Assembly (NCBI RefSeq): GCF_002355415.1
Contig: NZ_AP014936.1
Location: 558,001-622,000 of the forward strand
DNA: 64,000 nt
Direction of reading: 5' to 3'
Source: Sulfurifustis variabilis
Lineage (GTDB): Bacteria; Pseudomonadota; Gammaproteobacteria; Acidiferrobacterales; Sulfurifustaceae
Shown here: positions 41,577 to 44,119 of the stretch, piece after piece
Position numbering within the stretch: position 1 is the stretch's first letter
How the letters are laid out: every line of letters starts with the position of its first letter
Made by a program: the position numbers and the translations under genes
The notes under the pieces: generated by a model
Database searches by the model: none
Told to the model about the DNA's origin: nothing
Seen by the model: the letters and a program-made list of their open reading frames with translations, nothing else

Positions 41577-42158
41577 ATGATTTACCTTGCCTCCGCCAGT
41601 CCCCGTCGGCGCGAGCTCCTCGCCCAGGCCGGGCTCGCGTTCGAGGTCGTTCCCTCGAACATCGTCGAGCTGGCCCGGGAGGGCGAGCCGCCTGCCGAGT
41701 ACGTGCAACGCGTCGCGCTCGACAAGGCGCGCTTCGTCGCGAAGGTCGTCCGCGAGCGAGGCCTCCCGGCGCGCCCGGTCCTCGGGGCCGATACCGAGGT
41801 CGTGCTCGACGGCGCGGTCCTCGGCAAGCCGCGCGACCGCGCGGACGGCATTGCGATGCTGCGGCGACTGTCGGGCCGCGCGCACTCGGTGTTGACCGGC
41901 ATCGCGCTCGTGCATCAGGATGGAGAGTACGGCGCGCTTTCCGAAAGCCGCGTGACGTTTGCGCGGTTGACCGACGACGAGATCGCGCGCTACTGGGAGA
42001 CCGGCGAGCCGGCCGACAAGGCCGGGGGCTACGCCATCCAGGGTCGTGGCGCCGTTTTCATCAGCCGGATCGAGGGCAGCTATTCGGGGGTCGTGGGGCT
42101 GCCGCTGCACGAGCTCGCCGAGCTCCTCAAGCGGGCCGGAGCGGCCGCGCTTCCGTAA
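41577..42158 (+). CDS. maf: Maf-family nucleoside-triphosphate pyrophosphatase
   Basis: Maf proteins hydrolyse dTTP/UTP or modified nucleotides to monophosphates. The 193-aa product begins MIYLASASPRRRELLAQAGL, the phosphate-binding signature, and has GADTEVVLDG with the catalytic Asp and the KAGGYAIQGRGAVFI strand. ATG 41577 is chosen over the upstream TTG at 41556, which lies in the repeat. The typical Maf-rng order follows, but with a duplicated rng 5' end between them. The exact subfamily was not settled. Confidence 0.94.
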   Translation: MIYLASASPRRRELLAQAGLAFEVVPSNIVELAREGEPPAEYVQRVALDKARFVAKVVRERGLPARPVLGADTEVVLDGAVLGKPRDRADGIAMLRRLSGRAHSVLTGIALVHQDGEYGALSESRVTFARLTDDEIARYWETGEPADKAGGYAIQGRGAVFISRIEGSYSGVVGLPLHELAELLKRAGAAALP

Positions 42159-42168
42159 GGACGACCGG

Positions 42169-42387
42169 ATGAGCGAAGAGATTCTCATAAACGTTACCCC
42201 GCAGGAAACCCGCGCCGCCGCGATCGAGAACGGCGTGCTGCAGGGCGAGGCGGGGGCGTCGCGAATGCACTTAACGTGCATTCGCGCCGCCGAGCGCCCG
42301 GCCATGGATGGCCGGGCTGGGGTTCAACGGAGCGGTGACGTTACGCCAGGGATGGCTGGCACAGCCGCAGCACGCTATCGGGGATGA
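42169..42387 (+). pseudogene. Truncated rng copy 1, 72-codon ORF with the native ribosome site
   Basis: The ATG follows AAGGA (42157-42161), the likely original rng ribosome site. The ORF has 25 residues of RNase G (MSEEILINVTPQETRAAAIE and on) and then 47 residues read from the insert, ending in RYRG. Its TGA overlaps the ATG of copy 2. It lacks all catalytic parts. Confidence 0.75.
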
Positions 42388-42598
42388 GCGAAGAGATTCT
42401 CATAAACGTTACCCCGCAGGAAACCCGCGCCGCCGCGATCGAGAACGGCGTGCTGCAGGGCGAGGCGGGGGCGTCGCGAATGCACTTAACGTGCATTCGC
42501 GCCGCCGAGCGCCCGGCCATGGATGGCCGGGCTGGGGTTCAACGGAGCGGTGACGTTACGCCAGGGATGGCTGGCACAGCCGCAGCACGCTATCGGGG
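42169..42598 (+). repeat. Two identical 215-bp tandem units duplicating the rng 5' end
   Basis: Unit 1 is 42169-42383 and unit 2 is 42384-42598; I see no difference between them. Each has the first 75 bases of rng (ATG to CTGCAG) and then about 140 bases with two perfect hairpins, GCGAATGCAC/GTGCATTCGC and GCCCGGCCAT/ATGGCCGGGC, plus a CCAGGGATGGCTGG segment. A third copy of the 75 bases opens intact rng at 42599, with one base change (Ala to Val codon). Confidence 0.95.
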
Positions 42599-42602
42599 AT
42601 GA
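42384..42602 (+). pseudogene. Truncated rng copy 2, 72-codon ORF
   Basis: It is identical to copy 1 in sequence but preceded by CTATCGGGG instead of a ribosome site. Its TGA overlaps the ATG of intact rng (ATGA at 42599-42602). If made, it depends on reinitiation after copy 1. Confidence 0.7.
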
Positions 42603-44119
42603 GCGAAGAGATTCTCATAAACGTTACCCCGCAGGAAACCCGCGTCGCCGCGATCGAGAACGGCGTGCTGCAGGAGGTCTACGTCGAGCGCGCGCGCAGC
42701 CGGGGCATCGTCGGCAACGTCTACAAGGGTCGGGTCGCGCGCATCCTCCCGGGGATGCAGGCCGCCTTCGTCGACATCGGTCTCAATCGCGCGGCCTTCC
42801 TGCACGCCTCCGATATTCGTACGCCGGAGGCGCCGGCGCGCGAGCGCGCGGCGGTCGCCCTCGACCAGAGCGGCGCCGCCGTCGCCCGCGTGAGCAACGG
42901 CAACGCCTGGCCGGCGCCGCGCATCAACGAGCTGCTGCACGACGAGCAGGAGCTGGTGGTGCAGGTGGTGAAGGACCCCCTGGGCACGAAGGGCGCCCGG
43001 CTCACGACGCAGATCACGCTCCCCGCGCGCTACCTGGTCTACATGCCGTACTCGCGACACATCGGCGTTTCGCAGAGGATCGGCGACGACACCACCCGCG
43101 AGCGGCTGCGCAACCTTCTGCGCTCGCTCACCGAGAGCGACGAGGGCGGCTACATTCTCCGCACGATGGCGGAGACCGCGGCCGAGGAAGAGATCGAGAC
43201 GGACGTGCGCTACCTGCGGCGGATCTGGTCGGCGTGCCAGGAGCGCATCAAGAGCGCCAAGCCCGGGGAGCTCATCCACGAAGACCTGCCGCTCGCGCTG
43301 CGCGCCATGCGGGACCTCGTGCGCGCGAACGTCGAGAAGATCCGCATCGACTCTCGCGAGACGTACCTCAAGGCGATCGACTTCGCGATCAAGTTCATTC
43401 CCGAGACCGCCGAGCGCATCGAGTACTACCCGGGGGAGCGGCCGATCTTCGACCTGTACTCGGTCGAGGACGAGATCCAGAAGGCGCTCGCGCGCAAGGT
43501 GCTGCTGAAGAGCGGCGGCTACCTCGTGATCGACCAGACCGAGGCGATGACCACGATCGACGTGAACACCGGCGCGTATGTCGGGCGCAAGAGCCTCGAG
43601 GAGACGCTGTTCAAGACCAATCTCGAGGCGGCGCAGGCGATCGCGCGGCAGCTGAGGCTCCGCAATCTCGGCGGCATGATCATCGTCGACTTCATCGACA
43701 TGAGCGACCCGGACCACAAGCGCGCCGTGCTGCGCGCCCTCGAAAAGGCGCTCGCGCGCGACCGGACCAAGGTGTACATGACCGAAATGTCGCCGCTCGG
43801 TCTGGTCGAGCTCACGCGCAAGCGCACGCGCGAGTCGCTCGAGCATGTCCTCTGCCAGCCGTGCCCGGTCTGCCAGGGGCGGGGCACGCTCAAGACGCCG
43901 CAGACCGTCTGTTACGAGATCTTCCGCGAGATCCTGCGCGAGGCGCGCCAGTTCGGCGCCGACGAGTACCTGGTCGTCGCCTCGCAGGTCGTGATCGACC
44001 TCCTCCTGGACGAAGAAGCGACGAGCCTGCTCCAGCTGCAGGAGTTCATCGGGAAGCCGATCCAGCTCAAGGTGGAGCCGCTTTACCACCAGGAGCAGTA
44101 CGACGTCGTGCTGTTGTAG
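42599..44119 (+). CDS. rng: Ribonuclease G
   Basis: RNase G (CafA) trims 16S rRNA 5' ends and degrades some mRNAs. The 506-aa protein starts MSEEILINVTPQETRVAAIE, with an S1 domain (about 35-125; GNVYKGRVARILPGMQAAFVD), an RNase E/G nuclease core with catalytic Asp in TTIDVNTGAY and DFIDM, and the zinc-link motif CPVCQGRGTLKTP. Its 5' end is preceded by two tandem truncated copies, so its translation probably depends on ATGA reinitiation. Length matches RNase G rather than RNase E. Confidence 0.96.
   Translation: MSEEILINVTPQETRVAAIENGVLQEVYVERARSRGIVGNVYKGRVARILPGMQAAFVDIGLNRAAFLHASDIRTPEAPARERAAVALDQSGAAVARVSNGNAWPAPRINELLHDEQELVVQVVKDPLGTKGARLTTQITLPARYLVYMPYSRHIGVSQRIGDDTTRERLRNLLRSLTESDEGGYILRTMAETAAEEEIETDVRYLRRIWSACQERIKSAKPGELIHEDLPLALRAMRDLVRANVEKIRIDSRETYLKAIDFAIKFIPETAERIEYYPGERPIFDLYSVEDEIQKALARKVLLKSGGYLVIDQTEAMTTIDVNTGAYVGRKSLEETLFKTNLEAAQAIARQLRLRNLGGMIIVDFIDMSDPDHKRAVLRALEKALARDRTKVYMTEMSPLGLVELTRKRTRESLEHVLCQPCPVCQGRGTLKTPQTVCYEIFREILREARQFGADEYLVVASQVVIDLLLDEEATSLLQLQEFIGKPIQLKVEPLYHQEQYDVVLL

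Follow-up and report, generated by a model that had tools for sequence, protein, structure and literature searches.

Organization of the maf-rng region

The window analyzed here is the whole stretch of 64,000 nucleotides (nt) spanning positions 558,001 to 622,000 of contig NZ_AP014936.1, the single contig of 3,958,814 base pairs (bp) forming the genome of Sulfurifustis variabilis. We focused on the region between the maf and rng genes, where the beginning of rng is present three times and a structured repeat, named E here, is present twice. All the features described in this region are carried by the forward strand. The upstream gene, maf (41577-42158, start codon assigned by eye), encodes a Maf-like nucleotide pyrophosphatase (Pfam PF02545, E-value 7e-60; TIGR00172). 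The downstream gene, rng (42599-44119), is intact: its 506 codons encode ribonuclease G (RNase G) and match NCBIfam NF008689 with 703 bits, the cut-off being 594. Between these two genes lie two tandem units of 215 bp each (42167-42381 and 42382-42596), which are 100% identical, in keeping with the original prediction that two identical truncated copies of the rng 5' end precede this gene.

Each unit consists of a 78-bp rng start, called X (76 bp counted from the ATG), followed by a 137-bp insert. X1 (42167-42244) is a displaced rng start found in its native upstream context, X2 (42382-42459) is a second displaced start identical to X1, and X3 (42597-42674), the working start, is identical to X1 at 77 of the 78 positions. 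The only difference between them is the base present at 42215, 42430, and 42645 (C, C, and T, respectively), which gives Ala, Ala, and Val at codon 16. The three copies had been described as starting with the same 75 bases: a shared start does exist, over 78 bp, but it is not exact in copy 3. The inserts E1 (42245-42381; model core 42243-42356) and E2 (42460-42596; model core 42458-42571), each including the structured repeat and a tail, are exactly alike, and at 137 bp they are shorter than the 140 bases initially counted. The rng-type ATGs are located at 42169, 42384, and 42599, as had been claimed. Two open reading frames of 72 codons start at the first two ATGs (42169-42387 and 42384-42602), and the TGA ending each of them overlaps the following ATG. 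Since 215 is not divisible by 3, the successive starts are in different frames. A Shine-Dalgarno-like site, AAGGA (42157-42161, identified by eye), precedes copy 1 only. These points all agree with the first description. Taken as a protein family, the 72-residue product had no match in Pfam, and NCBIfam matched only its rng start. A chance origin of this layout is excluded, given the perfect 215-bp tandem repeat and the many relatives of the insert.

Native and added parts in related genomes

The rng gene was matched in 19 genomes of the family to which S. variabilis belongs, 16 of which have a full readable start. In 13 of these 16 genomes, rng has a single plain start, E being absent from the 420 nt examined, and in several of them maf and rng overlap at an ATGA. 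The comparison with relatives devoid of the units, which had been proposed along with the original prediction, thus agrees with the idea that a palindrome-rich element entered the start of rng, as do the E copies with duplicated flanks found elsewhere (see below). The X-E-X layout occurs at rng in S. variabilis (G000), G003, and G015; among the congeners of G015, the seven whose rng start can be read are devoid of the left copy. In G006, E is present before rng and the left copy is not clear (L027). In two other relatives (L062 and L064), the maf-rng gap contains another repeat-like sequence instead of E.

Codon 16 of rng encodes Val in all 15 relatives (15/15), as it does in copy 3, whereas Ala occurs only in copies 1 and 2. 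Copy 3 can therefore be regarded as the working gene. The base change shared by copies 1 and 2 and absent from both copy 3 and the relatives bears out the previous suggestion that the unit was duplicated after its formation; most simply, the change would have arisen in the displaced copy before the unit was doubled. Wherever this could be judged, the left X was found to be in its native upstream context, i.e., next to the end of maf at rng and, at the tRNA-Thr gene, with the promoter spacing retained (by eye): in G002, a genome devoid of E, a -10-like box precedes the tRNA by 17 nt, and in G011 it precedes the left X by 19 nt (by eye). Since the left X keeps its native context at both rng and tRNA-Thr, the added part consists of E, the tail, and the right X.

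Features and distribution of the E element

The sequence inserted at rng is a member of a family of structured, dispersed repeats which carry no gene of their own. When the insert was searched for in its own genome, 31 matches were obtained at E-values of up to 1, including both window copies and their self-complementary parts, and 11 at E-values of up to 1e-6, both window copies counted. In a DNA search at the latter threshold, matches were found in 18 of 41 genomes: 18 of the 20 belonging to the family, and none of the 21 outside it. E is about 115 nt long and forms three hairpins; it starts with GGG[C/T/A]GA, and its left end comes after GG.

In the alignment of E, comprising 22 copies and 117 columns, 16 of the 29 base pairs have changed on both sides while 99.5% of the cells are paired, as compared with 29-41% in the control with slid partners. 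The outer stem (42245-42253/42287-42295 in E1) is interrupted by GA opposite GA and encloses a long hairpin 1 (42260-42286), the loop of which is TTAAC in E1 and in most of the copies. Hairpins 2 (42296-42317, loop ATGGAT) and 3 (42345-42356, loop AGGGAT) have six-base loops containing GGA, and the motif A-N-GGA occurs in the loop of hairpin 3 in 22/22 aligned copies and in that of hairpin 2 in 21/22. Hairpin 3 is invariant, including its three pairs in E1, so that covariation is uninformative there. The RNA of one unit is more stable than shuffled sequences (z -3.5), and its predicted minimum departs from the consensus fold around hairpin 2.

With the covariance model R1, E1 scores 124.4 bits, E1 itself being among the sequences used to build the model. 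E was detected using R1 in 19 of the 20 family genomes, with up to 56 copies in one genome (E-value of 0.001 or less), in 22 of the 57 genomes of the order (1e-9), and in 13 of 369 sampled gammaproteobacterial genomes (1e-12), two of which, G000 and G004, belong to the family. E is spread over several families of Gammaproteobacteria. At the gathering score, 11 E loci gave no Rfam match apart from tRNAs, and the window gave only weak Rfam matches. Nothing in the phage collection matched 42150-42700, and the one exact E pattern used on viral contigs gave zero matches. In the plasmid collection, one partial E match was observed, in Xanthomonas sacchari (NZ_CP010410.1, 11898-11965; 61% of the core at 81% identity). 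No description of E was found in the titles and abstract openings of the papers listed in searches of the open-access literature. Since related repeats are located in the same way at the edges of many tRNA genes and of a few other genes in relatives (see below), E seems to be a poorly known type of mobile repeat which leaves its target gene usable.

Two other arrangements of E were observed. Head-to-head inverted pairs of about 230 bp set in GACAGGATTAACAGG...CCTGTTAATCCTGTC are present at many loci, for example L216, L217, L218, and L220 in G004, L028, L167, L243, and L244 in G016, and L162, L181, and L236 in G011; these pairs may be a recently moving form. At L033, L039, and L012, E contains, in the loop of its hairpin 2, a second E-like element likewise preceded by GG (by eye).

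Duplicated gene edges flanking E

We surveyed the flanks of 162 distinct E copies, taken from the best matches and from chosen stretches of the listed places rather than from all the copies. A flank was taken to be duplicated when the sequence ending at the GG before E recurred downstream of E with a score of at least 12. Duplicated flanks anchored at this GG|E boundary were found in 41 of the 162 copies, as compared with 34 of 648 control anchors placed 23-43 nt off, which are partly positive since long duplications extend to them. The layout observed at many loci is X-E-tail-X-rest, where X is the edge of a gene, running from the mature tRNA end or from the start codon of a protein gene up to a GG preceding A or T, and the right-hand X runs on into the intact gene. 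The rng locus is therefore only one of the places where this dispersed element is found, and the edges most often duplicated are those of tRNAs, a point which the original prediction had not foreseen. At 27 distinct target junctions, GG comes before the junction in 26, the exception being an anchor 2 nt off, and A or T comes after it in 27. The units mostly measure about 120-215 bp (120-457 bp overall) and carry no gene.

Genes encoding tRNAs, identified with ARAGORN, account for 29 of the 41 duplicated flanks: 15 at 3' ends, with E in the antisense orientation, and 14 at 5' ends, in the sense orientation. X includes 16 nt of the tRNA in the 3' cases, one of which reads 18 with an anchor 2 nt off, while it includes 18-19 nt (up to the GG of the D-loop) in 12 of the 5' cases and 30 nt in the other 2. 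In 16 of the 29 cases, the start of the duplication lies 0-2 nt from the tRNA edge; it lies 3-9 nt outside this edge in 5, and 3 nt inside it in 1 (because of a mismatch). In the other 7, the duplication extends 16-108 nt further, into a second E which is truncated (by eye) in all but L047. The remaining 12 cases comprise rng in three genomes (L001, L022, and L030), two units at a single gene of G012 (L179), genes encoding a response regulator (L004) and a glycoside hydrolase (L003), a tRNA-Pro unit with its copy in the following unit (L047), and four cases which are weak or repeat-borne (L248 twice, L267, and L282). An older case was recognized by eye at parE of S. variabilis (L014). Except for maf, rng, and the tRNAs, the genes are named according to our reading of their translations.

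Outside the family, 19 loci were analyzed (16 from the class search and 3 from G054 of the order), three anchor offsets being allowed. A duplicated flank was found at E in 14 of them, all of which contain a tRNA gene (ARAGORN), with X corresponding by eye to a tRNA end, and none was found in the other five (L321, L323, L329, L332, and L333). In G075, a single tRNA gene with the anticodon CAT has tandem arrays on both sides (L330, 777-1795 and 1826-2204): 7 copies of 145 bp with pieces of the tRNA 5' half on the 5' side, and 2.7 copies of 142 bp with the tRNA 3' end on the 3' side. At the tRNA-Pro gene of G018, two different E units follow each other, each with a tRNA end. Among the 19 genomes showing the pattern at tRNA-Pro, an exact 15-nt left copy is present in 7, while altered copies, E remnants, or nothing recognizable were observed in the rest.

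At L300, L307, and L313, the two copies of the tRNA-Pro end were seen by eye to enclose an E-like unit which is shorter and has no hairpin 1. At L024, L321, L323, and L332, which are in genomes of different families, E comes after a similar AGCGGCAGG/AGCGGCAAGG sequence with no duplicated flank (by eye), and this sequence is possibly the same gene end.

Origin of the duplicated edges

As a whole, the data are probably best explained by assuming that insertions of E at GG|A/T bring along a second copy of the edge of the gene entered, which thus remains whole, and that the unit formed at rng was then doubled. In S. variabilis, one insertion in codon 26 of rng would have displaced X1, in which codon 16 would later have mutated from Val to Ala, and the X1-E unit would then have been duplicated once, copy 3 being the working gene. 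The mobile unit would most likely be E-tail-X, which would carry its own edge, derived from another, diverged version of the gene concerned; some activity might transfer it as a cassette or by allelic transfer.

Three features bear on this point. The tails, which extend from hairpin 3 to the right X, vary depending on the target and are alike across genera for the same target, as in the case of tRNA-Thr in G001, G011, and G016. The duplications follow the edges of the genes. Lastly, the copies in protein genes show 19 synonymous versus 4 nonsynonymous differences, 26% of synonymous changes being expected (p 1.7e-8); this test included six pairs at five loci, the two pairs at L179 not being independent, and L003 and L004 were omitted since their coding copies do not differ. 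Taken together, these features suggest that the E-tail-X unit brings its own functional edge, and it may be that this unit does arrive as a cassette, although we rate the chances of this as somewhat below even. The synonymous bias can also be read as the result of selection on the left copy.

Several observations weigh against this explanation. No duplicated flank was detected at the threshold used in 121 of the 162 E copies. The pair in the window, taken alone, runs opposite to the synonymous trend, with 0 synonymous differences and 1 nonsynonymous difference, and no direct sign of a foreign right X was found at rng, since its distances to the relatives are the same in kind as those of the left X. 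E clusters only weakly by target, the mean identity being 0.759 between copies at the same target in different genomes, 0.730 between those at different targets in the same genome, and 0.721 otherwise. Arrays of E occur which resemble local tandem duplications, and the same can be said of the truncated left E entered by 6 of the 29 tRNA duplications. In addition, no trans-acting enzyme was found for E in a search limited to Y1 transposases. The possibility that the copies were templated by the ends of mature tRNAs was considered and dropped, since the copies in protein genes start at the ATG, which is not an expected RNA end at rng.

The duplicated edges could instead be the outcome of ordinary processes. 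In the absence of any special mobility, an E already present before a gene might have given rise to a tandem E plus edge by slippage or unequal recombination at the GG microhomology beside the hairpins, the left ends being lost later on. This would account for junctions sharing only GG(G), for the truncated left E just mentioned, for the 7-copy array of G075, and for the identical units at rng, but the junction is always located precisely at the left end of E, the left X of rng is still natively joined to maf with no trace of E there, and the two successive units at the tRNA-Pro gene of G018 are different; we therefore regard this scenario as unlikely. Ordinary transposition with a long and variable target-site duplication, in which the displaced copy decays unselected and the unit is later duplicated by recombination, strikes us as slightly less plausible again. 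The X-E-X layout with its direct repeats and GG|A/T target, the empty sites in relatives, and the duplicated flanks extending 7-9 nt past the tRNA edge in L166 and L219 all fit this process. Plain target duplication predicts, however, that the right end should be fixed, that the duplications should end at random, and that the left copy should decay without constraint, and the pattern observed differs: the stretch separating hairpin 3 from the right X has no fixed terminus and is target-specific, the duplication begins 0-2 nt from the tRNA edge in 16/29 cases and at the start codon or no more than 2 nt from it in the window, L022, and L030, so that the native ribosome sites are not included, and the differences between copies are mostly synonymous. 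As regards the target duplication previously invoked at rng, the gene start is indeed duplicated, but the synonymous bias and the target-specific tails argue against a plain target-site duplication.

The layout might also be a selected control device, E acting as a leader of the CsrA type which regulates rng, or rng being tuned by the number of units. Hexaloops containing ANGGA bind CsrA, and this motif occurs in the two loops as described above; six genes of the CsrA family are present above the Pfam cut-off in the S. variabilis genome, and the overlapping frames are consistent with translational coupling. On the other hand, E is absent at rng in 13 of the 16 relatives, and its loops match the TwoAYGGAY model at a sub-threshold level (19 bits versus a gathering score of 43). 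In 15 of the 29 tRNA cases E is antisense to the 3' end of the tRNA, which makes a general regulatory role unlikely. We take a control function of this kind to be improbable. An assembly artefact, the unit being actually present once or absent, seems extremely improbable: although the units are identical over 215 bp, the same layout occurs in other genomes, and the assembly of strain skN76 was obtained, according to the genome report (PMC5024460), from PacBio RS II data with a 15-20 kb library at 210x coverage.

Predicted expression of rng

In all seven protein-gene cases (the window, L022, L030, L014, L179, L003, and L004), the codon phase at which E is inserted is the same. In 6 of the 7, the fused frame remains open all the way across E, and in 5 it ends in an ATGA overlapping the next start, the cases without such an overlap being L003 and L004. 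At rng, the possibility of a separate promoter or ribosome site for copy 3 had been raised from the outset: no Shine-Dalgarno-like site was found by eye before this copy, and a consensus scan, the only method used here, detected no sigma-70-like promoter in 41900-42800. Since neither was found, the most likely route for the translation of copy 3, judging from the sequence, would be termination-reinitiation via the two successive ATGA overlaps. RNase G is therefore predicted to be made only via two successive reinitiations. No evidence was obtained for an intron-like removal or a translational bypass by which the left X would be connected with the gene, and the Ala at codon 16 in copies 1 and 2 speaks against it.

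Significance of the E-tail-X arrangement

An odd duplication at one gene is tied here to a structured element which is found in several gammaproteobacterial families, where it occurs at tRNA genes and at the starts of other genes and leaves the gene unbroken. If the unit does arrive with its own gene edge, bacteria would hold a minimal, gene-less mobile unit carrying the edge of its target, which would explain the origin of the partial tRNA copies and repeat arrays located beside tRNA genes, such as the tyrT repeats of Escherichia coli. Going further, and more tentatively, E-tail-X could represent a novel class of integrative micro-cassettes without genes, mostly measuring 120-215 bp and composed of a folded element and a captured gene edge, which would be installed at GG|A/T in tRNA genes and gene starts by a trans-acting activity, restore the gene each time, and move between species of Gammaproteobacteria, with the E. 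coli tyrT repeats as a parallel or distant case.

Comparison with known systems

As compared with an insertion sequence or its miniature form, E has a fixed left end at GG| but no fixed right end, and the duplicated flank follows the edges of the genes. The REP and REPIN sequences associated with RAYT (Y1) proteins are likewise dispersed palindromic repeats, sometimes forming inverted pairs, whereas E is about 115 nt long, forms three hairpins, and is associated with duplicated gene edges. REPs are described (PMC3733652) as short (20-40 bp) palindromes with a GTAG/CGTC tag, and this GTAG tag differs from the left end of E. No Y1 transposase flanked by E was found: among the 30 family Y1_Tnp loci scanned, out of 43 Y1 matches listed, over up to about 1.5 kb on each side, E occurs in only one, about 1.1 kb off. 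Membership of the REP/RAYT system was therefore rejected on the grounds of size, left-end tag, and Y1 linkage. The model for TwoAYGGAY RNA (RF01731) was not matched either, its 19 bits extending over 22 nt.

Rickettsia palindromic elements, ERIC, and other repeats of 100-150 bp are similar to E in size, are palindromic, and are in some cases located in reading frames; to our knowledge, duplicated gene edges are not a feature of Rickettsia palindromic elements or ERIC-type repeats. Integrative elements such as prophages and genomic islands, which are inserted at tRNA ends or gene 5' ends, are bordered, like E, by a displaced gene end and by a copy which restores the gene. The differences between the gene-end copies of such elements can also be mostly synonymous. 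Integration of this kind at the 5' end of a gene is exemplified by dusA (PMC4482086). Units of 120-457 bp are, however, too small to carry an integrase gene, and a helper acting in trans was sought only among Y1 proteins. PMC2864571 was also drawn on in these comparisons.

The closest known arrangement appears to be that of the tyrT/tyrV repeats of E. coli K-12 (RtT RNA, Rfam RF00391; rttR), which consist of tandem 178-bp units, each combining a structured insert with a copy of the 3' end of tRNA-Tyr. The K-12 tyrT locus matches the RtT model four times, whereas this model gave no match in 11 E loci at the gathering score, nor in 42100-42700 up to an E-value of 10, and conversely the E model reached only 5.8 bits at K-12 tyrT, which is no match. 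E also differs from RtT, of which one locus was examined, in that it is dispersed and occurs at tRNA 5' ends and protein-gene starts as well. Judging from these sequences, E is not a member of the RtT family, but it resembles RtT in its layout at tRNA 3' ends: tandem units including the tRNA 3' end are present at some E loci (for example, tRNA-Pro, tRNA-Glu, and tRNA-Arg), although not at rng.

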